Origin: an uncultured Winogradskyella sp.
GTDB taxonomy: Bacteria; Bacteroidota; Bacteroidia; Flavobacteriales; Flavobacteriaceae
Direction of reading: 5' to 3'
NCBI GenBank assembly: GCA_913055905.1
Contig: CAJXLB010000001.1
Span: forward strand, 806,001 to 870,000
Length of the DNA: 64,000 bases
Shown: positions 23,262 through 58,648 of the stretch, in pieces
Numbering within the stretch: position 1 is the stretch's first letter
How the letters are laid out: every line of letters begins with the position of its first letter
Notes under the pieces: model-generated
What the model was told of the DNA's origin: nothing
What the model saw: the letters and a program-made list of their open reading frames with translations, nothing else
Databases searched by the model: none
Made by a program: the position numbers and the translations under genes

Positions 23262-24629
23262 TTAGGCCGCAAGTTCCCTTGCGGTCTTTTTTTTATTTAG
23301 TTCGTAAAGTAGAACAGTGAAAACAATCAAATATTCCATACCTACAATCCACAGATTCTCTTTAAAATTCTCATTACTGTAGGCCAAATAACTTAGAACA
23401 ATACATAAAGACCAAACTATAGGATATCTGTAATTGTTGAAAACACAAAGAACTACCAAGGTGCTTATATACCACGGATGTACTGTCGTACTTAAAAAGA
23501 AATATACACTTGTGGCAAATAGCATCGACGTTATAAGTTGTTGCGTCGTATAATTTCGTCTAAACAGGGCCAGCCCTAGAATACTCAAAAAGGTTAAAAT
23601 AGATAAAACAGGGCTAATTGTGCTTATGAGGTTAAAACCCGTAAACCAATAACCAAAAGCCCTAGCTATATAATAAAGACTAGCATTGAATTCAAATTGT
23701 CCAAACCATAAACCAATAGATGAGGTATAATTTTCTAAAAATTGAAAGGACAAAAAGGGAACGTATAAGCTGATAATTGTAAGTCCGACCAGGGAGTAAA
23801 AAGAAATGACCGTTTTAAGACCTTTTAACTTATTTGTATTGTTCTCCAGTTTCTTGATGTACTTAAAGAAAAGTGGCAACAACATTAAAGTTATGAGTTT
23901 GGTACCAATGGACAGAGCGAACACTACAGCAGCGCACTGCCATTTTCCCTTTTGAAGGAGATAAAGACTCCATACCAAAAAAAAGAGCATAACGCCTTCA
24001 AAGTGCAGATTCCCTGTAAGCTCTATTATAATAAGCGGATTTAGTGCATACAAAAAAATACGTGATTTTGGGAGATTCAAAGCTTCTAGAAGTTTTTTAC
24101 CCAAATAGATTATACCTATATCTGCAGTAATTATAATCAGTCGCAACACAAGAATTGATCCAAGGATATGTTTGCCTGATATCAGAGCTGCAATAAAAAA
24201 ACAAAGCTGATTTATGGGTGGGTAATTGGTATAGTTAGAAGCGCTCAATGCGCCCATGCCTTTGTAGAGTTCTAAGCCTTGATAAATAGGGAAGCTTCCT
24301 TCTTGGAAAAATGAAATAGGAAGGTATACATACGGATTCATTCCTTCTAACAAAAGCCTTCCATCCCAAATGAATCTATAAAAATCTTGAGATAAATTAG
24401 GCTCAGCAAACAGGAAAATAAGTCGAAATAAAACAGATGCAGCAACAAGTAACTTGAAATCAGAACATTGCTTTATGAGTAAATAAGCTAATACAAAGAG
24501 ACCAAAATATAAGCTTAAAAGTTTTAGACCGTCTTCACGATTAAGATCGTAGGCAAAAAGGACATAAAAGATTAAACTAAAACTAATTAAAAGCAGTGAC
24601 GTCTTGTGATATTTCCACAAGTCCATCAC
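23262..24629 (-). CDS. GT-C fold membrane glycosyltransferase (mannosyltransferase-like)
   Basis: A 455-residue polytopic membrane protein with roughly ten to twelve hydrophobic segments. The first periplasmic loop carries SQDFYRFIWDGRLLLEGMNPY (~79-99), the acidic motif common to GT87/PIG-M/MptB-like enzymes that use polyprenyl-phosphate sugars. STTVHPWYISTLVVL near residue 390 is a second feature of this group. The acceptor is unknown. Its ATG overlaps the stop of the CesA-like gene by 4 nt, and a DPM-like synthase sits two genes upstream, so it may use polyprenyl-phosphomannose made by its own operon. Confidence 0.8.
   Translation of the reverse strand: MMDLWKYHKTSLLLISFSLIFYVLFAYDLNREDGLKLLSLYFGLFVLAYLLIKQCSDFKLLVAASVLFRLIFLFAEPNLSQDFYRFIWDGRLLLEGMNPYVYLPISFFQEGSFPIYQGLELYKGMGALSASNYTNYPPINQLCFFIAALISGKHILGSILVLRLIIITADIGIIYLGKKLLEALNLPKSRIFLYALNPLIIIELTGNLHFEGVMLFFLVWSLYLLQKGKWQCAAVVFALSIGTKLITLMLLPLFFKYIKKLENNTNKLKGLKTVISFYSLVGLTIISLYVPFLSFQFLENYTSSIGLWFGQFEFNASLYYIARAFGYWFTGFNLISTISPVLSILTFLSILGLALFRRNYTTQQLITSMLFATSVYFFLSTTVHPWYISTLVVLCVFNNYRYPIVWSLCIVLSYLAYSNENFKENLWIVGMEYLIVFTVLLYELNKKKTARELAA
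23265..23294 (+). terminator. Intrinsic terminator within the convergent gene's 3' end
   Basis: GGCCGCAAG (23265-23273), loop TTCC, CTTGCGGTC (23278-23286), then a run of eight T. The 9-bp stem plus U-tract terminates the plus-strand gene ending at 23257. The stem also encodes the last residues (ARELAA) of the minus-strand GT-C protein; no U-tract follows on the minus strand. Confidence 0.85.
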
Positions 24630-26116
24630 ACTTTAGAAGTTAAAGACTTAAAAAACACATAACCAAAGCCAATAAAGAGCATAAGGTGAAAAGGGAAAAG
24701 ACCAAAGTCGCCTCCTTGGTCTCCGACAATGAAAGCGCTATACAGCCCAAAACCAAAATAGAGCATCAACAAACCTTCTAAAATAATGTGAGGGGAGAGT
24801 TTTTTTCTGAGGTATTTATTGCCTTTCCAAGAATCTCTAATCGTGTTTATGTTAAATTTAGGCGTTCGCACAAATTCACTGCGCTTACCTAAGTGACCTT
24901 CTACAACTGCGATGGAGTTATGTAACGAAAAGCCCATAGCAATGGAGAAAAACGTAAAGAACATACCTATATAACCAAAAAAACGTTTAAAACCACTACC
25001 GTAGATATTTCTATACATAAACCAATAGCACACAAAAAAGATAATGGTGCTAATCACAAAGAAACTCATTACATAGAAATAATTTCTTAAGTGGGCATAT
25101 TCATTTTTTATGTAAAGCATTGGAATGCTTAATACGGCGACTATAAAAATACTTAGGAACATGGTGCTGTTAAGCAGGTGTAATAACCCGTGAACCTTGG
25201 TCTTAAATGAAATCGTATCTGATTTAATAACACGCCAAAGCATCTTTCTAAAATTCTCAGCACCACCTTTATTCCATCTAAATTGTTGCGATCGAGCGGC
25301 ACTGATTACAACAGGTAGTTCTGCAGGTGTTTCAACATCTTCCAGATACTTAAATTCCCAGTTTTTTAATTGAGCTCTATAGCTTAAATCCAAATCTTCT
25401 GTTAGCGTGTCGCCTTCCCAATTTCCTGCGTCAATGATACATGCTTTACGCCAAACACCAGCCGTACCATTAAAGTTTATAAAATGGCCTTTGCTATTTC
25501 TACCTACTTGTTCGAGGGTGAAATGCGCATCAAGTGCAAAGGCTTGAATTCTCGTTAACAACGAATAATTTCGGTTTATATGTCCCCATCGTGTTTGTAC
25601 TACACCAATTTTTTCATTTTTAAAATAAGGGATAGTACGCTTTAACCAGTTGGGTCGTGGTAAAAAATCGGCATCGAATATGGCAATGAATTCACCTTTG
25701 GCAATTTTTAGGCCCTCTTTTAGTGCTCCAGCTTTAAAGCCTTTTCTGTTGGTTCTAGTAATATGCTTAATATCCAATCCCTGGGCGGCTAATTTTTCTA
25801 CATGAGCTTTGGTTGTTGCTAAGGATTCATCAGTGGAGTCATCCAAAACCTGAATTTCCAATTTATCTTTTGGATATTCTAGGAGGGCGATATTATCCAG
25901 TAAGCGTTCCATAACATAAAGCTCATTAAATACTGGCAGCTGAATGGTAACTGTAGGAACTTCGTCTGGATTGCTTAAGTCAAATTTTTCGACTTCTTCG
26001 CGACGTTTTTTAGAAGAGAGGTAATTAATCAGTAAGTTCAACTGAGCCAAAGCATACAAAAATATGAGTACAATGGCTATAGTATAAACGACTATGATTA
26101 CAGATTCTAATAGCAT
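24626..26116 (-). CDS. Processive family-2 glycosyltransferase, cellulose-synthase-like
   Basis: A 496-residue inner-membrane glycosyltransferase: one N-terminal membrane helix (~5-30), a cytoplasmic GT2 domain, and C-terminal membrane helices (~310-490). Catalytic signatures of the CesA/CsL group are all present: VLDDSTDES (first Asp), FDADFLPRP (DxD-like), LTEDLDLSYRAQ (catalytic base TED) and QQFRWNKGGAENFRK (QxxRW). The product could be a beta-linked polysaccharide or a glucosyl/mannosyl lipid; ceramide glucosyltransferase-like proteins share these motifs. It is co-transcribed with the GT2 gene (1-nt overlap) and the GT-C gene (4-nt overlap). Confidence 0.85.
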   Translation of the reverse strand: MLLESVIIVVYTIAIVLIFLYALAQLNLLINYLSSKKRREEVEKFDLSNPDEVPTVTIQLPVFNELYVMERLLDNIALLEYPKDKLEIQVLDDSTDESLATTKAHVEKLAAQGLDIKHITRTNRKGFKAGALKEGLKIAKGEFIAIFDADFLPRPNWLKRTIPYFKNEKIGVVQTRWGHINRNYSLLTRIQAFALDAHFTLEQVGRNSKGHFINFNGTAGVWRKACIIDAGNWEGDTLTEDLDLSYRAQLKNWEFKYLEDVETPAELPVVISAARSQQFRWNKGGAENFRKMLWRVIKSDTISFKTKVHGLLHLLNSTMFLSIFIVAVLSIPMLYIKNEYAHLRNYFYVMSFFVISTIIFFVCYWFMYRNIYGSGFKRFFGYIGMFFTFFSIAMGFSLHNSIAVVEGHLGKRSEFVRTPKFNINTIRDSWKGNKYLRKKLSPHIILEGLLMLYFGFGLYSAFIVGDQGGDFGLFPFHLMLFIGFGYVFFKSLTSKV

Positions 26117-26805
26117 TACTTAAAACTATATTTAAAAATCCATCCCAGGATTTTTACGCCTGCAAATATAGCACCTTTTACGGTACCCGAAACTTTTGAC
26201 TCGCCTATTCTGTTTCTATATCTTACTGGGATTTCCCTATAGGTTAATCTTTGTTTCAAAGCCTTTAACTGCATCTCAACAGTCCAACCATAAGTTTTGT
26301 CTTCCATCTTCAAGTCCATTAGCCTTTGGTATTTTATAGCTCTAAAGGGTCCAAGATCGGTAAATGTAGATTTAAAAAATAACCTCATGAGGGTTGTGGC
26401 GAGCCAATTACCGAAAATTTGTGGTAAGGTCATCGACCCTTTTTCTCTCAGTGCCTTTACTCTTGCGCCTACCACAAAGTCAATGTCTTCTTCAATAATT
26501 GGTTGAACGATTTTGGACATTTCTTCAGGATAATCGCTGTAATCACCATCTAAAAAAACAATGATATCTGGTGTCTCGTTTTGGTTGGCGATATAAGCCA
26601 TACCTTTTAAGCAGGCATAGCCGTACCCTTTTCGAGCTTCTTTTAAAACGGTAGCGCCCGCATCTAAAGCTACTTGTTCTGTTTGATCCGTAGAGTTATT
26701 GCTTACTACTATTATTTCGTTAGCGATTTCTGGAATAGCTTTAATAACCAAACCTATGGAGTCTTGCTCATTAAAAGCTGGAATAATCACTTTGATATTT
26801 GGCAT
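26116..26805 (-). CDS. Family-2 glycosyltransferase, DPM1/polyprenyl-phosphate mannosyltransferase-like
   Basis: A 229-residue GT2 enzyme starting at ATG 26805. Motifs: KVIIPAFNEQDSIGLVIKAIP, VVSNNSTDQT, a DxD in FLDGDYSDYPEEM, GARVKALREKGSMTLPQ, DLGPFRAIKY and GWTVEMQLKAL. These are typical of dolichol-phosphate-mannose-synthase-like enzymes, which load a sugar onto polyprenyl phosphate. It is first in a three-gene glycosyltransferase operon and is followed with 1-nt overlap by the CesA-like gene. Confidence 0.85.
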   Translation of the reverse strand: MPNIKVIIPAFNEQDSIGLVIKAIPEIANEIIVVSNNSTDQTEQVALDAGATVLKEARKGYGYACLKGMAYIANQNETPDIIVFLDGDYSDYPEEMSKIVQPIIEEDIDFVVGARVKALREKGSMTLPQIFGNWLATTLMRLFFKSTFTDLGPFRAIKYQRLMDLKMEDKTYGWTVEMQLKALKQRLTYREIPVRYRNRIGESKVSGTVKGAIFAGVKILGWIFKYSFK

Positions 26806-26824
26806 TGTATCGCTTTTGAAGGCG

Positions 26825-26832
26825 CAAAAATA
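26825..26832 (-). promoter_or_regulatory. Bacteroidota -7 box for the glycosyltransferase operon
   Basis: On the minus strand TATTTTTG (26832 to 26825) fits TAnnTTTG 19 nt before the ATG at 26805. A TTG lies upstream at 26857-26855, spacing 22 nt, inside the 3' end of the polyferredoxin gene. The site suggests the three glycosyltransferases are transcribed separately from the genes upstream. Confidence 0.5.
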
Positions 26833-26836
26833 CAAT

Positions 26837-28429
26837 TTATTGCTTCTTGTTGACCAATTCCATTAAGTTCACATCGTTTCCTAATAAAATTTCTGTTGGA
26901 TTAATTCGACCTTTCATACTGTCATTTTCCAGTTTTAGAACACCTCTAGGACAAACCGCAGCACAAATACCGCAGCCTACACAACTTGAACGGACTATAT
27001 TTTCGCCCTTCTGCGCATAGGCTCTGACGTCGATTCCCATTTCGCAATAGGTAGAGCAATTACCACAAGAAATGCACTGTCCGCCGTTTGTGGTTATTCT
27101 AAATTTTGAAAACAATCGCTGTTGAAATCCTAAAATGGCGGCCATAGGACAACCAAAACGGCACCATACTCTGTTGCCAAAGATGGGATAGAACCCAGTG
27201 CCAATGACGCCAGAAAAAATGGAACCAATATAAAGCCCATAGGCTGAACGCAAAGCACTAGATTTAACAAAAAATAATTTGTCAGTTGTTCCCGTGAAAT
27301 GCATGACCAATAGAAGCATTATGACTGTAAAAAAACCGATAGCACCATATTTAGCGTCTTTTCCAAATTCATGGCGCTTGAAAAGCATAACTCCTGTAAA
27401 GAGAATGGAAAGTAATCCAGTAACCAATGCAATAAAAACTCCACGAGTTAGCCAGAAATCATTTTTATCATAGCCTAAGTAAGAATATATCACAGCTGTT
27501 GTCATCACCACAGAAAAAACAAGCACGGTATGGATGAGCCAGCGTTCCATTTTCCACGCACTTAATTTTTTTGAGGAGAGGTGCCTGAAGGGATCTCCTG
27601 CTGTTTCTGCAAGTCCGCCACAACCGCAAACCCAGGAGCAGTACCATCTTTTACCATACTTATAGGTAAGAATTGGTGTGATTATAAATATGGAGATAAT
27701 ACCAAAAAGGAGTAGAGCAAGCCCAATGTGGCCAGCCGACAAAAAGGCTTTAACAGACCATTCATCAAACAGATAGTAATTTAGTGGCCAAATACTCTTT
27801 AAATCATAATAAGGTAAGTCGTTATTCATGACATACATAAACTCGGGAATTAAAAAGGCAAAGGCCAATTGAAAAAACATAACCGAGAATGTCCGCAATC
27901 TTTGGTACCTATTATGTCTGTACTTAAGCAAGAATTTATACCCAAAGACTAAAATGGCCATGGTATATAATGTGCCGTAAACAAACCATTGACTCGCATT
28001 CCTGCCGCTCAGCAACTGACTCAAAGGATCAAATAATCCAATAAGTCCTGTATTGTTGGCGCCGTCCGTACCTAAACCTAAATATTCCGGAAAAAAGTAC
28101 AGTACGATATAAAACCCGGTGAGTACCAAACCAATAATCCAACCCCAAAGACCACGAGCGGATGTGGATTTAAACCAAGCGCCATCATTTTTTATGCCCT
28201 CATGTTTAGATAAATACGCTTCTCGAGAATAGATAATGGTGCCTGCGGCAATTAAAATCATAGAAGCTGCTAAAAAGGTCTCTTTGTATGGGAAATTGAC
28301 GTTGGCCAGAGCTAAAACCAAAATAAATAAGCCTAAAAGCCCAATGACCACGGCTGATTTTTGCTTAATTGTTAGTTGTAAAGCATCAGGTTTTGCTATG
28401 GACATACTATGATTTAATTTGTTGCTCAT
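26837..28429 (-). CDS. Membrane polyferredoxin, NapH/CcoG/NosR-like 4Fe-4S protein
   Basis: Counted from ATG 28429 the protein has 530 residues; a longer in-frame start at 28462 would overlap the upstream gene. It has about ten membrane helices. YCSWVCGCGGLAE and WCRFGCPMAAILGF are the paired Cys motifs found in NapH/NosR/MauN-type membrane ferredoxins. Two classical clusters follow near the C-terminus: CISCGNCSTYCEMGID and CVGCGICAAVCPRGV. Such proteins move electrons between quinol or NAD(P)H and periplasmic or membrane oxidoreductases. It begins 1 nt after the FAD oxidoreductase stop, so the two likely form one electron-transfer module; the terminal acceptor is not in the window. Confidence 0.85.
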   Translation of the reverse strand: MSNKLNHSMSIAKPDALQLTIKQKSAVVIGLLGLFILVLALANVNFPYKETFLAASMILIAAGTIIYSREAYLSKHEGIKNDGAWFKSTSARGLWGWIIGLVLTGFYIVLYFFPEYLGLGTDGANNTGLIGLFDPLSQLLSGRNASQWFVYGTLYTMAILVFGYKFLLKYRHNRYQRLRTFSVMFFQLAFAFLIPEFMYVMNNDLPYYDLKSIWPLNYYLFDEWSVKAFLSAGHIGLALLLFGIISIFIITPILTYKYGKRWYCSWVCGCGGLAETAGDPFRHLSSKKLSAWKMERWLIHTVLVFSVVMTTAVIYSYLGYDKNDFWLTRGVFIALVTGLLSILFTGVMLFKRHEFGKDAKYGAIGFFTVIMLLLVMHFTGTTDKLFFVKSSALRSAYGLYIGSIFSGVIGTGFYPIFGNRVWCRFGCPMAAILGFQQRLFSKFRITTNGGQCISCGNCSTYCEMGIDVRAYAQKGENIVRSSCVGCGICAAVCPRGVLKLENDSMKGRINPTEILLGNDVNLMELVNKKQ

Positions 28430-28430
28430 G

Positions 28431-29735
28431 TTATGCAATTTGTAATTTTTTGTGAAACGCATCTACTATTTCAGTCTCATAGCGTGCATAAAATTCTGGG
28501 TCAAAATTAGCTTCGGCGAGATGTTCTATAACGTAATCTACCTTACGCTCTTCGCTTAGCCATTGGTTAAAAGTCTTGTGGCGCATCCTAATACCAAAGG
28601 TATTAATACCTAAAAACATTTTAGTGTCCTTATGGTAAGCCACAGTGATACATTTGGTGTCATCCTCATGCCTCCAATGGAATTGCGCCTCATAATCTGG
28701 TTTTTTCTTCTTACTGTGTACCCAGCCATAAGTTTGGTATTCTATATCGAAGAACTTGGCCGAGTTAAACCAATGCCCAGGATTATAAGGCATACGATTG
28801 CCGCACAAGGTCTGTGCTAGGGCTTCCCCCATCATTCGGCCTGTATACCAAACCGCCTCAATTGTAGGTCTGTTGCCTATGGCTTTGCGTTGTTCGGCAC
28901 AGTCGCCTATGGCAAATACGTCCGGAATATTGGTTTCTAAATATCGGTTTACCAGAACACCACGATTTGTTTCGATTTCAGAATTCTTAAGAAAGTCAAT
29001 ATTAGGAGAAACGCCAGCTGTTAAACCTACGACATCGCAAGAAATCTCTTCACCTGTTTCCTCTAATATGATAGAACTTACCTTGCCATTAGCACCTGCT
29101 TTTATTTCCTTGAGATTGCTTGAAAGACGAAGATCAATACCGTGTTTGATGATATGCCTGTTTATCATTTGACTCTCGCCTTCAGGTAAAACACCATTCC
29201 AAAAACTGCTTTCGCGAACTAAAAAGGTCACAGGGATACTGCGGGAGCTCAACATTTCTGCCAACTCAATGCCAATAAGACCACCACCCACGATGACAGC
29301 GCGTTTACAAACCTCATTATTCGGAGCATGTTTTTCTAGGTTGTCTAAGTCCTGCTTATGGTATAAGCCCATAACACCTTCTAAATCCTGTCCTGGCCAA
29401 CCAAATTTATTGGGTTTGCTTCCAGTGGCAATCACCAATTTGTCATAAGACATCGTTTCACCATTGGAAAACTTTAAAGTTTTACTATTGGTGTCTACTT
29501 TGTTTACAATGCCTTTTCTCAATTCTATTCGGTTTTTTTTCCAAAACCAATTCTCATAAGGTTGGGTGTGCTCAAATTTCATATGGCCCATATACACGTA
29601 CATTAGGGCAGTTCTAGAAAAAAAGTAGTCTGTTTCTCCAGAGATGAGCGTAATTCTGTGGTCCGAAAATTTACGTACATGGCGTGCAAGCGTTACTCCA
29701 GAAATACCATTGCCAATAATAACGATGTTATCCAT
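28431..29735 (-). CDS. NAD(P)/FAD-dependent pyridine nucleotide-disulfide-type oxidoreductase
   Basis: A 434-residue flavoprotein with an N-terminal FAD site IVIIGNGISGVTLARHV (~4-20), a central NAD(P)H site AVIVGGGLIGIELAEML (~146-162), the ATGSKP linker and the second FAD motif VFAIGDCAEQ (~276-285). It resembles ferredoxin- or rubredoxin-reductase-like members lacking the redox disulfide. Tight coupling with the polyferredoxin gene suggests it feeds NAD(P)H electrons into it. The last ~90 residues (HWFNSAKFFDIEYQTYGWV onward) are an additional domain seen in Bacteroidota homologues. Confidence 0.85.
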   Translation of the reverse strand: MDNIVIIGNGISGVTLARHVRKFSDHRITLISGETDYFFSRTALMYVYMGHMKFEHTQPYENWFWKKNRIELRKGIVNKVDTNSKTLKFSNGETMSYDKLVIATGSKPNKFGWPGQDLEGVMGLYHKQDLDNLEKHAPNNEVCKRAVIVGGGLIGIELAEMLSSRSIPVTFLVRESSFWNGVLPEGESQMINRHIIKHGIDLRLSSNLKEIKAGANGKVSSIILEETGEEISCDVVGLTAGVSPNIDFLKNSEIETNRGVLVNRYLETNIPDVFAIGDCAEQRKAIGNRPTIEAVWYTGRMMGEALAQTLCGNRMPYNPGHWFNSAKFFDIEYQTYGWVHSKKKKPDYEAQFHWRHEDDTKCITVAYHKDTKMFLGINTFGIRMRHKTFNQWLSEERKVDYVIEHLAEANFDPEFYARYETEIVDAFHKKLQIA

Positions 29736-33316: not shown

Positions 33317-34009
33317 TCAAGTAATATTGTTCTTGTAGTAGGTATAAAGTTCTTCTGCCGAGGCACCGAGCCAGCGTTTTATATAGATTCTAATAAAAAG
33401 GTATTGTAACCGCCAAACACCAATCTTTTTATAGAGTCGAGCCGAAGTTTTTATTTTTTTATTGATGACCACAAATTGTCTTCTTCGGTAAAGTTCATTG
33501 ATTAAGATATTGTCTTCGTAAATAATATAGTCTTCATTATACCCGCCAATATCTTGGAACAAGGCTTTTGTGATAAATAAGCTCTGATCACCACCGCGAC
33601 AAGGTCGCCAATTAAACTGTGTTAACCAACTTGCCAATTTTAACCACCAGTGGTTGCTATCAAACTGCATTCTAAAGCATCCAGCTTTGTTGCCTTGAAC
33701 TACTTCATCAATAATTAATTGGTCAAAATTTTTGGGAGGAAAGGCATCGGCATGCAGGAAATAAAGAATAGCGCCTTTGGCTTTTCGAGCTCCAGTATTC
33801 ATTTGTTTGGCGCGTCCCTTTTCTGAAGCTATTAGAGTAACATCCTTAAATTTAGTTACAATACTTTGAGACCCATCCGTACTACCACCATCAACAACAA
33901 TAATATCTTCAATATTTTCCTTTGAACTGTTTTCTTGCAAATGATTGAGAAGTTCTCCAATGAAATCGCATTCGTTGAAAATGGGAATAATGATAGAAAT
34001 CTTAGTCAT
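33317..34009 (-). CDS. TIGR04283-type arsenosugar biosynthesis glycosyltransferase
   Basis: A 230-residue GT2 family protein. ISIIIPIFNECDFIGELLNHL, IVVDGGSTDGS and ASEKGRAKQMNTGARKAKGAILYFLHADAFPP are characteristic of the TIGR04283 family, which is named for its occurrence in arsenosugar clusters. CRGGDQSLFITKALFQDIGGYNED follows. It probably transfers or modifies a sugar in the late pathway; donor and acceptor are unproven. It is last in the operon and overlaps the DUF547 gene by 8 nt. Confidence 0.9.
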   Translation of the reverse strand: MTKISIIIPIFNECDFIGELLNHLQENSSKENIEDIIVVDGGSTDGSQSIVTKFKDVTLIASEKGRAKQMNTGARKAKGAILYFLHADAFPPKNFDQLIIDEVVQGNKAGCFRMQFDSNHWWLKLASWLTQFNWRPCRGGDQSLFITKALFQDIGGYNEDYIIYEDNILINELYRRRQFVVINKKIKTSARLYKKIGVWRLQYLFIRIYIKRWLGASAEELYTYYKNNIT

Positions 34010-34694
34010 TTAAGTCCCAATTATAGTCGAGATAATTGATTTTAGCTTTTGCAGAAACATCTATTTTAGAGTACTTACGAATAAAATCAATCACACCACC
34101 TGCATTATTGAAGTCTTTGGAAAACCATCTAAAGATTTTGGAAATCTCTAAGAATTCTTTTGAAATTTTGTTTTTAGAAGTATCGTTAAGAAATTCTAGG
34201 GTTGCCTCATCAAGTTGTTGTTCAAGATTTTTTGCTGTAAACGCTGCATTTTGAAGTTTAGGGCAAGACATTGAAGCACAAACGATGGCAAAATGAATTC
34301 TCGGTTCTTCCATTTTACGCAAAACCTTATGTTCAATATCATTCAGACTGATCCAATCGTCTCCAAATTTCCAAAGTGTTTGGTCCCATGGTTTTTTAAT
34401 ATCCTTAATGCTGTTTAAGGGATAATGTCTCAAAATGAGGTCAATGGTCAAAGCGTTATAGGCATTTATCCAATACGCTAACTTTTCATTTTTATTCCAG
34501 CTTTCCTCAGGAATATTCTTTTGTAGGGATTGGATATATGCATTTAAAGCCTGCGGATTTTTTTTGATTGCATCGTAATTTACCCTTCCGTCTTGAGACA
34601 CATGGGTGCTTAAAATCTGTGTCCAAAGTTGGTGATTCACCTGACACAACACGCTATTGCTAAAAATTAAACATATAAAGATTAAGACTTTCAT
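34002..34694 (-). CDS. DUF547 domain-containing exported protein
   Basis: A 230-residue protein with an N-terminal signal (MKVLIFICLIFSNSVLCQ; the Cys could be a lipobox). The DUF547 core is clear: LAYWINAYNALTIDLILRHYP (~70-90), IKKPWDQTLWKFGDDWISLNDIEHKVLR and RIHFAIVCASMSCPKL (~130-145). The family is common in bacteria and plants and has no proven biochemical function. Its location between ArsM and the TIGR04283 glycosyltransferase, with 8-nt overlap to the latter, places it in the arsenosugar operon. Confidence 0.9.
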   Translation of the reverse strand: MKVLIFICLIFSNSVLCQVNHQLWTQILSTHVSQDGRVNYDAIKKNPQALNAYIQSLQKNIPEESWNKNEKLAYWINAYNALTIDLILRHYPLNSIKDIKKPWDQTLWKFGDDWISLNDIEHKVLRKMEEPRIHFAIVCASMSCPKLQNAAFTAKNLEQQLDEATLEFLNDTSKNKISKEFLEISKIFRWFSKDFNNAGGVIDFIRKYSKIDVSAKAKINYLDYNWDLND

Positions 34695-34770
34695 AATTAC
34701 AAAATTAGCACGGCTTATTCCCTTTATATTTTGCTCCTTTTAGCATAGTATTTTTTAATTAAATGCAGTT

Positions 34771-35739
34771 TTAACAACAGCCGCCACCATCGTAGTGAAA
34801 CGTAGATTCTGAAATAAAAATATCTTCACGATTGAGTTTGGCTAATGCTCCTGCTGTTTTATCACAGATAGCTAAAGGCTGATTTTTTAGTAAAACATGT
34901 CCTGCTTTATCATCAAAATAATCCTCTTCACCAAAATAAATTGCTGCTTTACCCGTAAAAACGCAGGGACCGTCTTTAGGCATTGGATCTTTTATGGCGG
35001 CTACTTCTACAGATTCAATGTAGATTAATTCTTCGGTTGGATAATGTTTAGGGTCTAGAATTCGGTAAGGTTTCCTTGCTCTTATTTCAATAGTTCCAAA
35101 CCCAGCATCTGTAAGCATTTTTACATAATCTGCAATAGGTAAACTGCCACTAAGGCAAAGCGCTCTCAGCCGTTCGTCATTTCTCAAGGTATCGTTCATG
35201 GGTTGCTCACAGGTTGGGTCGCTCATAACGAGTCGGCCATGAGGCTTTAAAACCCTGTACATTTCGGCAATAGCTTGTTTAAGGTCATCTTCCTTAAAAA
35301 TATTGAACAAGCAGTTTTGGGCGGCCACGTCAATACTGTTATCTGCTACAGGCAAATGCATGGCGTCACCTTTCTTTAGGTCTACAAATTCTGATTTAAA
35401 CCAAGGATTTAGGGCTTCGGCTTCCTTAAAATTTTTTCTTGAAGCCTCTAACATCTCGTCTACCACATCAACGCCAATAACGCCCCCTTTTTGTCTGCTG
35501 AAATAGGAAAACTGCAAGAGTTCCATGCCGCCACCAACGCCAACGTATAAGATTTTCGGATTATTTACTAAGTCTCTGGCATGAACGGTAGACCCACAGC
35601 CATAGTTCATTTCTTGCATGATTTTAGGAATTTTTAAACCAGGCAATTCCCAAATAGGATTCGTGGTACAGCACAAGCCAACATCTGGAGTTAAGGCAGC
35701 TTCTTTGTAAACGTTATGTGTAGTATCTAAATAGCTCAT
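34771..35739 (-). CDS. arsM: Arsenite methyltransferase, arsenosugar type (ArsM)
   Basis: A 322-residue SAM methyltransferase predicted to methylate As(III) to dimethylarsenical. The SAM-binding motif is ILYVGVGGGMELLQF followed by VIGVDVVDEML. Candidate arsenic-binding cysteines occur in the expected contexts: NYGCGST (C48), SDPTCEQPM and RALCLSGSLPI, with an additional CC pair at 23-24 and a GGGCC terminus. The opening LTPDVGLCCTTNPIWELPGL and this terminus mark the arsenosugar-associated subclass. The ATG overlaps the PNP stop by 1 nt. The neighbours ArsS, TIGR04282 and TIGR04283 make this assignment firm. Confidence 0.93.
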   Translation of the reverse strand: MSYLDTTHNVYKEAALTPDVGLCCTTNPIWELPGLKIPKIMQEMNYGCGSTVHARDLVNNPKILYVGVGGGMELLQFSYFSRQKGGVIGVDVVDEMLEASRKNFKEAEALNPWFKSEFVDLKKGDAMHLPVADNSIDVAAQNCLFNIFKEDDLKQAIAEMYRVLKPHGRLVMSDPTCEQPMNDTLRNDERLRALCLSGSLPIADYVKMLTDAGFGTIEIRARKPYRILDPKHYPTEELIYIESVEVAAIKDPMPKDGPCVFTGKAAIYFGEEDYFDDKAGHVLLKNQPLAICDKTAGALAKLNREDIFISESTFHYDGGGCC

Positions 35740-36551
35740 TAAAAAGTTTTAATTAATTCTTTGAAAAGGGCGATCATTTCTGGTTCTGCTTTGGCAGCCA
35801 TGGCAATGATGTCATCTATATTAACGGGTTCTAGATGGTCAGGGTCGCACTCATCGGTGAGTACTGAAACAGCTGCTGCTTTCAACCCTAAGTGATTGGC
35901 CACAATGATTTCTGGAACCGTACTCATGCCCACGGCATCTGCTCCAATGATTTTTAACATTCTATATTCGGCTCGTGTTTCTAATTGAGGTCCAACAACA
36001 CTGGCGTAGACGCCTTTATGTATTTTGATGTTGTGGGCCTTGGCAATAGCCTCAAATTTAGAATTCAACTCGGCATCATAGGGTGCGCTCATATCTGTAA
36101 AGCGTGTTCCTAAATCAGAAACACCTTTAAATGCCAGAGGGGAACTTCCTTGAAGGTTGATATGGTCATCAATGAGCATAAGTTCACCTTTATTGAAATT
36201 GAGATTGATAGCGCCAGCAGCGTTTGAAACTAGCAGGGTCTTAATCCCTAATTTTTCCATGATTCTAACCGGAAAAGTTACGTCTTGTAAAGTGTAGCCT
36301 TCATAAACATGGAATCGGCCTTGCATAACGATTACCTTTTTGCCTTCCAAGGTGCCATAAATCAATTTTCCTTTATGAAACTCAACCGTAGCCGTAGGGA
36401 AATGTGGTATATGATTGTAGCTCGCTTGTACTTCTATATCTATGTCATTGATGAGCTGCCCTAAACCTGTTCCTAGAATGATTCCTATTTCTGGTTTTTT
36501 AAAGCCCCTTTGTATTAAATATTCGGTGCTTTCTAAGATTTGTTTAATCAT
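35739..36551 (-). CDS. Purine nucleoside phosphorylase in the arsenosugar operon
   Basis: A 270-residue trimeric-type (class I) purine nucleoside phosphorylase. IGIILGTGLGQL (~23-34), HFPTATVEFHKGKL, MQGRFHVYEGYTLQDVTFPVR, VSNAAGAINLNF, VVGPQLETRAEYRMLK and VGMSTVPEIIVANH are family signatures. The enzyme splits nucleosides with phosphate. In this operon a plausible substrate is the adenosyl-arsenical made by ArsS, from which removal of adenine would expose the ribose C1 for glycosylation; general purine salvage is the alternative. It overlaps both neighbours. Confidence 0.9.
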   Translation of the reverse strand: MIKQILESTEYLIQRGFKKPEIGIILGTGLGQLINDIDIEVQASYNHIPHFPTATVEFHKGKLIYGTLEGKKVIVMQGRFHVYEGYTLQDVTFPVRIMEKLGIKTLLVSNAAGAINLNFNKGELMLIDDHINLQGSSPLAFKGVSDLGTRFTDMSAPYDAELNSKFEAIAKAHNIKIHKGVYASVVGPQLETRAEYRMLKIIGADAVGMSTVPEIIVANHLGLKAAAVSVLTDECDPDHLEPVNIDDIIAMAAKAEPEMIALFKELIKTF

Positions 36552-37176
36552 TTAAATGCTGAATTTTTTCTTGTAACTGAAGGTTAGATTTATAAAAATT
36601 TGACGTGATTAAATCCTCAAATGTGTCAATATCATTTAGAGTTTCTAAAGTACTAATCTTAAGATTTAATTTAGCCAAATCTTGCAAGGTAATTTTGAAT
36701 AGTTGAGGTTGGCTCCAAGGTTTATTCTCAAAAATTTCGGGTACTAAGGTTTTTAGACCAACTAGGTAATAACCACCATCTTTGGCTGGTCCAAACACAA
36801 TATCGCTGGTATTGAGTTGGGCAAAGGCTTGCTTCAGGTGACTTTCGTTCAGGTCTGGTAGATCAGAACCAATAAGTACAATTTTATCATAACCCATACT
36901 AAAGCCATCCTTAAAAGCATTGAACATGCGTTCACCTAAATCAAGGCCATTTTGCACATATTTTTTGTTCTTTGGCCATAATTCAGAACTAATTTTACTT
37001 GAAAAATAAATGTGTGTGTCAATGTTTGGTAGGTTTTCGGTGATGCGCTCCGTTAAGCGCACAAGTTCTTTATAAACACCAAGTGCTTCAGCATGGCCAA
37101 TTTGTGCAGCAAGACGTGTTTTAACCTTACCAAGTTCTAAATTTTTCACAAAAACAATGACCAGGTCTTTACTCAT
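36544..37176 (-). CDS. TIGR04282-type arsenosugar biosynthesis glycosyltransferase (DUF2064)
   Basis: A 210-residue nucleotidyl/glycosyltransferase-like protein. VIVFVKNLELGKVKTRLAAQIG (~5-26), VLIGSDLPDLNESHL, FGPAKDGGYYLVGL and NDIDTFEDL are diagnostic of TIGR04282/DUF2064, a CofC/MobA-like fold. It may activate or transfer the sugar unit of arsenosugars. It overlaps the rhodanese and PNP genes by 8 nt on each side, so expression is tightly coupled. Confidence 0.9.
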   Translation of the reverse strand: MSKDLVIVFVKNLELGKVKTRLAAQIGHAEALGVYKELVRLTERITENLPNIDTHIYFSSKISSELWPKNKKYVQNGLDLGERMFNAFKDGFSMGYDKIVLIGSDLPDLNESHLKQAFAQLNTSDIVFGPAKDGGYYLVGLKTLVPEIFENKPWSQPQLFKITLQDLAKLNLKISTLETLNDIDTFEDLITSNFYKSNLQLQEKIQHLND

Positions 37177-37666
37177 AAACTTTTATGCCTTGTTTGAGCC
37201 ATTTGCCCCATTTCTTGGAGTAAGCATGTATGCTATCGGTAGCTTTGTTATTAGTATTATAGATAGGTAGGGAGGCGTTTTTCCAGTTAAAGATGCCTCC
37301 AAATAAATTATAAACATCAGTATAGCCTGCTGCTTTAAGCTCCTCTGCAATATCTTCTGAGCGTACACCTATGGAACAGTACACGACAATGGTTTTAGAT
37401 GTATTTCCCAGCTTTTTGGTTACGGCCTCTATATCAAAATCTTCATAACCGACATAAACAGCATCGTTAAGATGGCTTACATTGTACTCAGCACGCTCTC
37501 TGGCATCTAGAATTATAACCTTATCTGTCGATTCCAAAAGTTGATCAGCGGTAATGTATGGGATGCTTTCAGAATTATATTTTTTTAAAACTTCGGACAG
37601 ACTGCCTTGTGCAAATCCTGAAAAGGCTGCCAAAAAATAAGCTGTAAAAATTAAGACTTTAAACAT
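37169..37666 (-). CDS. Exported rhodanese-like protein
   Basis: A 165-residue protein from ATG 37666; the frame is open upstream into arsS but the signal peptide MFKVLIFTAYFLAAFSGFAQ begins here. A single rhodanese domain follows: VIILDARERAEYNVSHLNDA and the active-site loop VVYCSIGVRSEDIAEEL, with the catalytic Cys in a CxxGxR context. It may transfer sulfur or act as a thiol reductase in the periplasm. It starts 5 nt after the arsS stop and overlaps the TIGR04282 gene. A role in thio-arsenical chemistry is conceivable but unproven. Confidence 0.88.
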   Translation of the reverse strand: MFKVLIFTAYFLAAFSGFAQGSLSEVLKKYNSESIPYITADQLLESTDKVIILDARERAEYNVSHLNDAVYVGYEDFDIEAVTKKLGNTSKTIVVYCSIGVRSEDIAEELKAAGYTDVYNLFGGIFNWKNASLPIYNTNNKATDSIHAYSKKWGKWLKQGIKVYE

Positions 37667-37671
37667 TTCTA

Positions 37672-38727
37672 CTAAGTTACAGAACCTTGGCAGCTGCTGC
37701 CTGCACCAGCAGTACAACCATAGCAGTGCTGAGAGATAACTATGGGCCTTCCTTCAAGCAAATCTTCATTGTAGTCGGAGATGTGCTTTACCTTGCTATT
37801 TACAGGGAGCTCCAGCATTTGATTAAAGTCACAATCATATAAATAACCATCCCAACTTACGGAAATGGTATTGGTGCACATCACGTTGGCAACGGCCGAA
37901 GGATTAAAGGCTTCAACAAGAGAATACATATAGTCTTCGTAATTTTCTGAAGCGATTAAATAATCTAAAAACCGACTTATAGGAAGGTTGGTTATCGCAA
38001 ACAAGTTATGGAAATGAATTCCGAAATCTTCCAACAAGGCTTTTTTAAAGTCTTTTTCAAGTGACGCTTGGTCGCCTGGAAGAAATGCACCAGAAGGGTT
38101 GTAAACCAAATCCAGTTTTAAGGAACTATCTGGCATGCCATAACCTACGGCATTCAAATCTTTTAAGGCTTGAATGGATTTATCAAAAACACCATCGCCA
38201 CGCTGTTTATCTGTTTTTCCTCTTGTCCAGTGCGGCATGGAACTAACGACGTGTACATTATATTTTTTGAAAAACTCTGGTAAGTCATGGAATTTTTTGT
38301 TCGCCCTTATAATGGTAAGGTTGGATCGTACAATAAAATCCTTTACGCCCACTTTTGAGGCTTCTTCAACAAACCATCTAAAGTTAGGGTTCATCTCCGG
38401 AGCACCACCAGTAAGGTCTAGCGTGTGTGCGCCAGTTGTTCTTATCACTTCCAAGCATTGTTGCATGGTTTCCTTGGTCATGATTTCCTTGCGGTCAGGA
38501 CCAGCATCAACATGGCAGTGCGAACAGACTTGGTTGCACATGTACCCTACATTAATTTGTAAAATCTCTATTTTTTTGGCTTTCAGTGGAAATTGATTGC
38601 TTTCAGCAATTTTATCTGCAAATTTTGGTAAGTCTCCACTTTGAAAGATACCATTGGAGAGTATTTCTAGTTGTCTTTTTTTATTGGCGAGCTCACTCTC
38701 TCGCCTTAATAAGGATTTAGTTGCCAT
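37672..38727 (-). CDS. arsS: Radical SAM arsenosugar biosynthesis protein ArsS
   Basis: A 351-residue radical-SAM enzyme from ATG 38727; an in-frame ATG 13 codons upstream (38766) is possible. The [4Fe-4S]/SAM motif is CNQVCSHC (C64, C68, C71), followed by HVDAGPDR and LDLTGGAPEMNPNFRWF. The C-terminal SPASM-like region ends CYGCTAGAGSSCQGSVT, a hallmark of ArsS. ArsS-type enzymes transfer a 5'-deoxyadenosyl group to dimethylarsinous acid, giving the precursor of arsenosugars. It is the defining gene of the operon; the AhpD-like gene lies 70 nt upstream. Confidence 0.95.
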   Translation of the reverse strand: MATKSLLRRESELANKKRQLEILSNGIFQSGDLPKFADKIAESNQFPLKAKKIEILQINVGYMCNQVCSHCHVDAGPDRKEIMTKETMQQCLEVIRTTGAHTLDLTGGAPEMNPNFRWFVEEASKVGVKDFIVRSNLTIIRANKKFHDLPEFFKKYNVHVVSSMPHWTRGKTDKQRGDGVFDKSIQALKDLNAVGYGMPDSSLKLDLVYNPSGAFLPGDQASLEKDFKKALLEDFGIHFHNLFAITNLPISRFLDYLIASENYEDYMYSLVEAFNPSAVANVMCTNTISVSWDGYLYDCDFNQMLELPVNSKVKHISDYNEDLLEGRPIVISQHCYGCTAGAGSSCQGSVT

Positions 38728-38797
38728 GTATTCTTTTTCTTTTTCCGGATTCTTGTTTAGGGGCAATCAATTGTGCAATTTTGTTTATTGGTTTGAT

Positions 38798-39133
38798 TTA
38801 CATTTCTAGCTTATTAACCTTGTTCATCATTTGCACGCCATGAACCAAAGATGCGCCACCTCTAATAGCACCAGCTACATGGAGCGCTTCCATCATTTCT
38901 TCTTTTGTAATACCTCGCTGCAGGCCGTCTCCAGTGTAGGCATCGATACAGTATGGACACTGGATGGTATGAGCCACAGCCAAGGCTATTAGTGACTTTT
39001 CGCGTGCTGTAAGGTGGCCTTCTTCAAATACCTTAGCATAATAATCAAAAAATTTGGCGCCGAGTTCTTCGTTCCAATCTGATATTTTTCCGAATTTTTT
39101 TAAGTCTGCTGGGTCGTAATAGGTTTTAGACAT
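38798..39133 (-). CDS. Arsenosugar-associated peroxidase-like protein (AhpD/CMD family)
   Basis: A 111-residue carboxymuconolactone-decarboxylase-like protein with the AhpD CxxC pair C59/C62 in TIQCPYCIDAYTGDG and a downstream His in EALHVAGAIRGGASLVHGV. Small AhpD-like proteins of this form regularly accompany arsS. They could reduce oxidised arsenicals or peroxides; activity is unproven. It is the first gene of the arsenosugar operon, with a 161-nt upstream gap that should hold the promoter; I saw no strong TAnnTTTG match there. Confidence 0.9.
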   Translation of the reverse strand: MSKTYYDPADLKKFGKISDWNEELGAKFFDYYAKVFEEGHLTAREKSLIALAVAHTIQCPYCIDAYTGDGLQRGITKEEMMEALHVAGAIRGGASLVHGVQMMNKVNKLEM

Positions 39134-58174: not shown

Positions 58175-58648
58175 ATGCCAATGATAGCTACAGATAAAAA
58201 TCAACTTACTTTAATTTATAATTCCAATTCCTACCTTGGGAAGCAAGTTGCAGGTTATGTGCAGGGAATACAGAAAAAAATTGACCTCATTGATATAAAG
58301 GAGCAACAGTTAAAGGACAGTATTTGGATTGAGCTGTCAGCTATGTTGGATATGCCTTTTGAAGCCATTTTTGAAGTCCAGAATAAGGAGTGGTACAAAT
58401 CGGCGCAAGACAAGGAAGCCTTTAATGATGAAGATTGGATTAAACTGATACATAGTAAGCCGCATTTGCTTGAGCGCCCAATTGCCATTGTAGGTAATAA
58501 AGCTAAAATCATCTCCCGTCATTCAGAAATTCTAGAATTTTTCGGGGTTGATTCTGCAGGTTTGGAGAAAACACAAGCACATGAAGACCCTACTATAAGT
58601 AGTACCACAGAAAACGAATCGTTTTTAAAAAACCCTAAAAAAGACTAA
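58175..58648 (+). CDS. ArsC/Spx-like thioredoxin-fold protein lacking the catalytic cysteine
   Basis: A 157-residue protein of the ArsC (arsenate reductase, YffB/Spx) fold. The N-terminus LTLIYNSNSYLGKQVAGYVQ aligns with the usual CxxC/CxxS active site, but Ser/Asn replace cysteine, and the whole protein contains none. The family end motif KPHLLERPIAIVGNKAKIISR is intact, and a ~30-residue disordered tail follows. Without cysteine it cannot be a classical arsenate reductase; an Spx-like or structural role is more likely. It is terminated at once by a strong hairpin. Confidence 0.75.
   Translation: MPMIATDKNQLTLIYNSNSYLGKQVAGYVQGIQKKIDLIDIKEQQLKDSIWIELSAMLDMPFEAIFEVQNKEWYKSAQDKEAFNDEDWIKLIHSKPHLLERPIAIVGNKAKIISRHSEILEFFGVDSAGLEKTQAHEDPTISSTTENESFLKNPKKD

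Follow-up and report, generated by a model that had tools for sequence, protein, structure and literature searches.

Eight genes on the minus strand of a 64,000-nucleotide stretch of an uncultured Winogradskyella sp. (contig CAJXLB010000001.1, positions 806,001 to 870,000; hereafter the window) very likely convert toxic arsenic into a sugar that contains it. They form an operon of the arsenosugar type, as judged from the scores of its radical S-adenosylmethionine (SAM) enzyme ArsS and its arsenosugar-class arsenite methyltransferase ArsM, both of which exceed curated cut-offs. The kind of operon is already named by the NCBI family names, and six of the eight proteins exceed the cut-offs of curated NCBIfam models for families tied to arsenosugars; five of these models (TIGR04169, TIGR04167, TIGR04282, NF038099 and TIGR04283) mention arsenosugar biosynthesis in their descriptions. 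What is added here is a proposed route after ArsS, in which a purine nucleoside phosphorylase (PNP), the TIGR04282 protein and the TIGR04283 protein would follow ArsM and ArsS, and which we hold to be correct with slightly better than even confidence. A literature search, mainly of papers outside subscription and covering the accessible portions of text, found no paper assigning steps after ArsS.

The operon and its conservation

An earlier sequence-only reading of the window had given eight minus-strand open reading frames (ORFs) at 33317-39133, and their order, coordinates and family names all proved correct. The genes, which are an operon, are as follows, with the bit score and cut-off of the family model for each.

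38798..39133, minus strand: AhpD-like protein with CxxC, the first gene (TIGR04169, 188.9; cut-off 120)
37672..38727, minus strand: ArsS, radical SAM enzyme, cysteine form with CxxxCxxC (TIGR04167, 445.7; cut-off 300)
37169..37666, minus strand: rhodanese-domain protein (NF045521, 203.4; cut-off 145)
36544..37176, minus strand: TIGR04282 protein, candidate nucleotidyltransferase (TIGR04282, 198.4; cut-off 134)
35739..36551, minus strand: PNP-I family phosphorylase with Asp233/Glu191/Ile245 (TIGR01700, 300.5; cut-off 293.35)
34771..35739, minus strand: ArsM, arsenosugar-class arsenite methyltransferase (NF038099, 579.2; cut-off 400)
34002..34694, minus strand: DUF547 protein (PF04784, 104.9; cut-off 27; no NCBIfam match)
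33317..34009, minus strand: TIGR04283 GT2 glycosyltransferase (TIGR04283, 233.6; cut-off 182; PF00535, 80.1)

ATG codons were taken as the starts of ArsS (38727, not TTG 38766) and of the rhodanese (37666, not TTG 37717). The description of most genes as overlapping is then only narrowly true, because four of the seven junctions overlap (by 8, 8, 1 and 8 nt) and the other three have gaps of 70 nt (AhpD-ArsS), 5 nt (ArsS-rhodanese) and 76 nt (ArsM-DUF547). Shortly before the DUF547 start codon, at 34700-34707, lies TAATTTTG, which resembles the Bacteroidota -7 promoter element and may be there by chance.

Conservation was followed in loci obtained by an ArsS-only scan of genome contigs, which gave at least 593 pattern matches; 579 were confirmed and the best 80 loci were kept, nearly all labelled Flavobacteriaceae or its genera, with one Chlorobiota. 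Genes near ArsS were counted as tblastn matches of at least 60 bits on the ArsS strand: AhpD in 80 loci, TIGR04282 in 74, PNP in 62, rhodanese and ArsM in 52 each, DUF547 in 41 and TIGR04283 in 35. These counts are lower bounds, because 12 of the loci have less than 9 kb past the ArsS start. The full set of eight was present in 30 of the 80 loci, each time in the gene order of the window, which places the operon beyond chance.

The motifs of the individual proteins are also conserved. All 80 ArsS proteins keep CxxxCxxC and the C-terminal Cys motif; a selenoprotein form of ArsS was rejected, as the motif carries Cys and the frame has no in-frame stop. ArsM keeps YGCG in 51 of 51 and QNCLFN in 50 of 51 sequences. 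The rhodanese, whose N-terminus looks by eye like a signal peptide, has Cys97 and Arg102 (CX4R) in all 52 sequences. Arsenate reductases of the Cdc25/ACR2 type carry a CX5R loop, and this assignment was rejected for the rhodanese (CX5R in 0 of 52). The DUF547 protein, likewise with an apparent signal peptide by eye, retains H134 in 45, C139 in 45 and C144 in 43 of 46 sequences.

A proposed route after ArsS

It is known of these families that ArsM dimethylates arsenite and that ArsS joins the 5'-deoxyadenosyl group of SAM to arsenic. In the proposed route, arsenite would be dimethylated by ArsM and the SAM 5'-deoxyadenosyl group would be put on the arsenic by ArsS, after which the PNP would swap adenine for phosphate and give 5-dimethylarsenic-5-deoxyribose 1-phosphate (arsenoribose-1-phosphate). 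The TIGR04282 protein would activate this compound with a nucleoside triphosphate (NTP), and the GT2 enzyme TIGR04283 would move the arsenoribose onto an acceptor, for example glycerol or a lipid. AhpD may act as a thiol reductant that keeps the arsenic or the enzymes reduced, and the rhodanese and the DUF547 protein may act on the product or the acceptor in the envelope. What the sequences show is the family of each protein, the linkage of the genes, the predicted fold and the conserved residues; all reactions that follow ArsS are inferred, as are the parts played by AhpD, rhodanese and DUF547. PNP yields an alpha-1-phosphate, nucleotidyl transfer retains the alpha configuration and an inverting GT2 enzyme gives a beta-riboside, as in natural arsenosugars, so that the stereochemistry agrees with the proposed route. 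With three named enzymes, each with a defined intermediate, the steps after ArsS become directly testable.

The phosphorylase

The strongest argument for the phosphorolysis step is that either an MTA (5'-methylthioadenosine) phosphorylase, in proteobacteria, or a PNP with a partly similar pocket, in flavobacteria, goes with the set. Position 233 is Asn in human PNP and Asp in MTA phosphorylase, and position 245 is His in the former and hydrophobic in the latter; the 6-oxopurine pocket of human PNP is Asn/Glu/His. The operon PNP, with Asp233, Glu191 and Ile245, retains only the Glu of this trio, and its pocket resembles that of MTA phosphorylase at two of three positions. Among 60 PNPs from ArsS loci, 58 have Asp/Glu/Ile, one has Asp/Glu/Val and one is gapped at these positions; in two aligned MTA phosphorylases the third position is Val and Ala.

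The distribution of this PNP type was compared across the phylum, where a draw of 296 genomes contained 121 with ArsS above cut-off; 40 genomes with and 40 without ArsS were hand-picked from it for spread over families. The type with Asp and a hydrophobic residue was found in 39 of the 40 ArsS genomes. Within the window's family it was present in 12 of 12 genomes with ArsS and 1 of 9 without, the exception (G182) bearing the rest of the module, and within one genus in 3 of 3 and 0 of 7, respectively. Five of the 40 ArsS-less genomes had no PNP of the operon PNP's family at E <= 1e-25. The operon PNP looks like an old adenosine-type phosphorylase used by the operon and not made for arsenic.

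ArsS matches were also found on 52 plasmid records, 47 of them from Burkholderia. Six genera were covered by reading a single record per genus. Acinetobacter (L264) and Cupriavidus (L266, unannotated, with genes assigned by our own models) have in common ArsS, DUF547, TIGR04283, TIGR04282, an ArsM-like protein, a phosphate permease and MTA phosphorylase, in differing orders; in L264 the phosphorylase gene lies 2.2 kb from TIGR04282 on the opposite strand. In Burkholderia glumae (L265), TIGR04282, TIGR04283 and MTA phosphorylase are adjacent and lie 6 kb from ArsS, which is on the opposite strand. The set is thus accompanied by a true MTA phosphorylase in proteobacteria and, in flavobacteria, by a PNP whose pocket is similar in part; either would suit 5'-modified adenosines.

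A different reading makes the operon PNP an ordinary purine phosphorylase, or a helper of arsenate reduction through arsenolysis, with adenine leaving the ArsS product otherwise, for example by direct transglycosylation or through a nucleosidase. The protein does pass the inosine/guanosine model TIGR01700, across most of the genomes sampled from the phylum PNP does not adjoin ArsS, and the accessible text of one report describes reduction of arsenate by human PNP in vitro (PMC12608789). However, the genome has a separate DeoD-type phosphorylase, the operon PNP is without the housekeeping-type Asn/His pair and the three proteobacterial sets bear an MTA phosphorylase instead, and we consider this reading unlikely. 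Three PNP_UDP_1 proteins are encoded in the genome: the operon PNP, the DeoD-type phosphorylase, whose gene adjoins what looks by eye like a deoC ORF, and one further member, on contig 12. A search of the genome for MtnA gave no match.

The candidate nucleotidyltransferase and the glycosyltransferase

The predicted fold of the TIGR04282 protein is CofC/FbiD nucleotidyltransferase-like, of the MobA-like NTP transferase kind, and the equivalents of the three metal aspartates of FbiD (D116, D188 and D190) are kept in 68-69 of 69 relatives. Membership of the CofC family itself was rejected (TIGR03552, 34.4 bits against a cut-off of 105). Fold and motif make a nucleotidyltransferase the likelier identity of the protein, ahead of a glycosyltransferase, and the common annotation as a glycosyltransferase may mislead. 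The TIGR04283 protein fits an inverting GT2 glycosyltransferase, having a GT2 domain and conserved acidic residues (D40 and D88 in 34 of 35 sequences, E165 and D166 in 33 of 35, the remainder being gaps). The sequence-only reading had assigned both proteins to glycosyltransferase families, which holds for TIGR04283 and probably not for TIGR04282.

Co-occurrence with ArsS and alternative readings

In the same 80 genomes, TIGR04169 (AhpD) was above cut-off in 39 of 40 with ArsS and in none of the 40 without, where two weaker matches were seen. TIGR04282 was above cut-off in 39 against 11 genomes, TIGR04283 in 32 against 9 and the arsenosugar-class ArsM in 16 against none (within the window's family, 12 of 12 against 0 of 9). 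AhpD is the closest partner of ArsS, and TIGR04282 is a close but non-exclusive one. Outside the window's family, ArsS adjoins TIGR04282 and often TIGR04283, not PNP.

Several observations weigh against the proposed route. Arsenosugar-class ArsM was not above cut-off in 24 of the 40 ArsS genomes, nor TIGR04283 in eight and TIGR04282 in one, and the Fisher tests, run for these three families, ignore relatedness. As to linkage, PNP was not seen within the fetched stretch in 18 of the 80 loci, coordinates placed PNP near ArsS in none of the 28 ArsS genomes that belong to families other than the window's, two genomes of that family (G130 and G134) have ArsS and AhpD far from a PNP-TIGR04282-TIGR04283 cluster, and three of the six plasmid loci (Pseudanabaena, Hymenobacter and Thiodictyon) have no such phosphorylase within 7 kb. 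As to the pocket, 20 of the 40 ArsS-less genomes also have a PNP with Asp and a hydrophobic residue, other bacteria do too, as the solved PNPs 4lna and 4m1e show, one ArsS genome (G178) has Asn at 233, and Glu191 is Ser in the two aligned MTA phosphorylases. The operon PNP was rejected as a member of the MTA phosphorylase family (TIGR01694, 94.8 bits against a cut-off of 274.85); a function like that of MTA phosphorylase is possible. Finally, parts of the operon stand in genomes without ArsS, as rhodanese-TIGR04282-PNP-DUF547-TIGR04283 in G182, with a fatty-acid-hydroxylase-like gene where PNP would be in G154 and G142, and as DUF547-rhodanese-TIGR04282-PNP, without TIGR04283, in G045. In all four, the module reading frames are open, and there was no ArsS above cut-off and no arsenosugar ArsM at E <= 1e-30. 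Either ArsS was lost from these genomes or the module makes another product. The view of the whole operon as an arsenic set holds for AhpD, which tracks ArsS, and less well for the rhodanese-TIGR04282-DUF547-TIGR04283 part, with or without PNP, which is intact in some ArsS-less genomes.

These modules raise the alternative that PNP, TIGR04282, TIGR04283, rhodanese and DUF547 belong together as a module of general use, one that converts 5'-modified adenosines (MTA, 5'-deoxyadenosine) to activated forms of ribose from which envelope glycosides are made; ArsM, ArsS and AhpD would have been added to it, with arsenosugar as one product of several. Its intactness in the four genomes and the occurrence of TIGR04282 and TIGR04283 in ArsS-less genomes speak for it. 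However, TIGR04282 is strongly tied to ArsS, its linkage and that of TIGR04283 with ArsS recur in other phyla, the G154 and G142 modules have no PNP, and loss of ArsS could explain the ArsS-less cases equally well, so that we regard a general module as improbable. In a still wider form, which we find doubtful, TIGR04282, TIGR04283 and a phosphorylase would be a general route from SAM-derived 5'-modified adenosines to nucleotide-activated 5-substituted ribose for envelope glycosides; arsenosugars would be its arsenic branch, reached through an arsenic-bearing nucleotide sugar, and carriers without ArsS would produce a counterpart, sulfur-containing or deoxy, that has so far gone unrecognised.

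Purpose of the operon

The arsenosugar operon can be set in the context of the whole assembly (2.95 Mb, 98.67% complete), in which neither ACR3 (TIGR00832) nor ArsB (PF02040) had a match at E <= 0.001. Among ten window ORFs (six of 105-211 aa) scanned with Pfam there was no ArsR, PF01022 not being searched and the remaining window ORFs not being scanned; a genome search with PF12840 gave one match, an ORF reading by eye as Lrp/AsnC. The statement that the window has no arsR or arsenite pump therefore stands for ACR3 and ArsB and was checked in part for ArsR, none being seen among the eight genes. With this partial search for ArsR, an ordinary ars resistance operon was rejected, since no pump or ArsR is among the eight genes and ACR3 and ArsB had no match in the assembly. 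Four ArsC-family proteins were matched in the genome, three above the Pfam cut-off; one of these three lies inside the window, at 58175-58648, about 19 kb from the operon.

The operon had been called anabolic rather than a resistance operon, a choice that sequence alone does not settle. Because no pump was found, arsenosugar chemistry could serve the detoxification of the strain. That the operon serves detoxification, and not the making of a useful metabolite, is a real possibility to which we give a little less than an even chance; the missing ACR3 and ArsB matches and the ArsC-family proteins favour it, whereas no ArsR or exporter is seen in the operon. It concerns purpose and is compatible with the proposed route.

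Neighbouring genes

Outside the eight genes, one group may be an outer part of the cluster.

23265..29735, minus strand: FAD/NAD(P) oxidoreductase, membrane 4Fe-4S protein, two GT2 proteins and a multi-pass protein

These genes stand three genes from the operon and are candidate members only; relatives of them adjoin ArsS or TIGR04282 in distant Bacteroidota (L161, L189, L192 and L103). A gene of the fatty-acid-hydroxylase superfamily occurs in 19 of the 80 loci, recurring between ArsM and DUF547 (e.g. L022:18593-19477), and near ArsS in two gammaproteobacteria (L263:6042-6947 and L264:22384-23043); this recurrence hints that the acceptor could be a lipid. A PiT-type phosphate permease, possibly the entry route of arsenate, is in the cluster in seven of the 80 flavobacterial loci and two proteobacterial ones (L012:14136-15248, L264:20307-21419 and L266:5973-7109). 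In some relatives (L024, L036, L049, L061, L069 and L072) a SusC/SusD pair, a sodium:solute symporter, a metallophosphoesterase and a short TIGR04282 variant stand beside ArsS; the symporter and phosphoesterase families occur in 14 of the 80 loci, and phosphoesterase-AhpD fusions in L059, L061 and L069. Could the symporter, SusC/SusD and phosphoesterase neighbours be an uptake branch? In L029 (16539-20432), four consecutive DUF547 genes precede TIGR04283.

Comparison with known systems

Arsenosugars are the main form of arsenic in seaweeds according to the accessible text of one report (PMC5478658). The sequence-only reading had named ArsS and ArsM as a core established in cyanobacteria, in keeping with the available part of a source in which ArsS acts with ArsM in the initial arsenosugar steps of Synechocystis (PMC8552651); another source names Cheng 2021 for the adenosylation (PMC12159101). 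The window shares an arsenosugar-type ArsM and ArsS with this Synechocystis pathway (Xue 2019; Cheng 2021; both as cited in other papers). The cyanobacterial locus read here, on the Pseudanabaena plasmid, has ArsM and ArsS without the other six genes within 7 kb, whereas the window has all of them in one operon. The TIGR04282 protein is like the CofC/FbiD guanylyltransferases in predicted fold and three-aspartate motif and differs in its TIGR03552 score, which is below cut-off. The arsinothricin cluster arsQML of Burkholderia gladioli, as described in the accessible part of PMC8552651, likewise pairs ArsM with a C-As bond-forming radical SAM enzyme. The proteobacterial plasmid clusters L264, L265 and L266 have ArsS, DUF547, TIGR04283, TIGR04282 and a nucleoside phosphorylase in common with the window; they differ in gene order, in having a true MTA phosphorylase instead of PNP-I and in that our models for the rhodanese and TIGR04169 matched nothing in those stretches.

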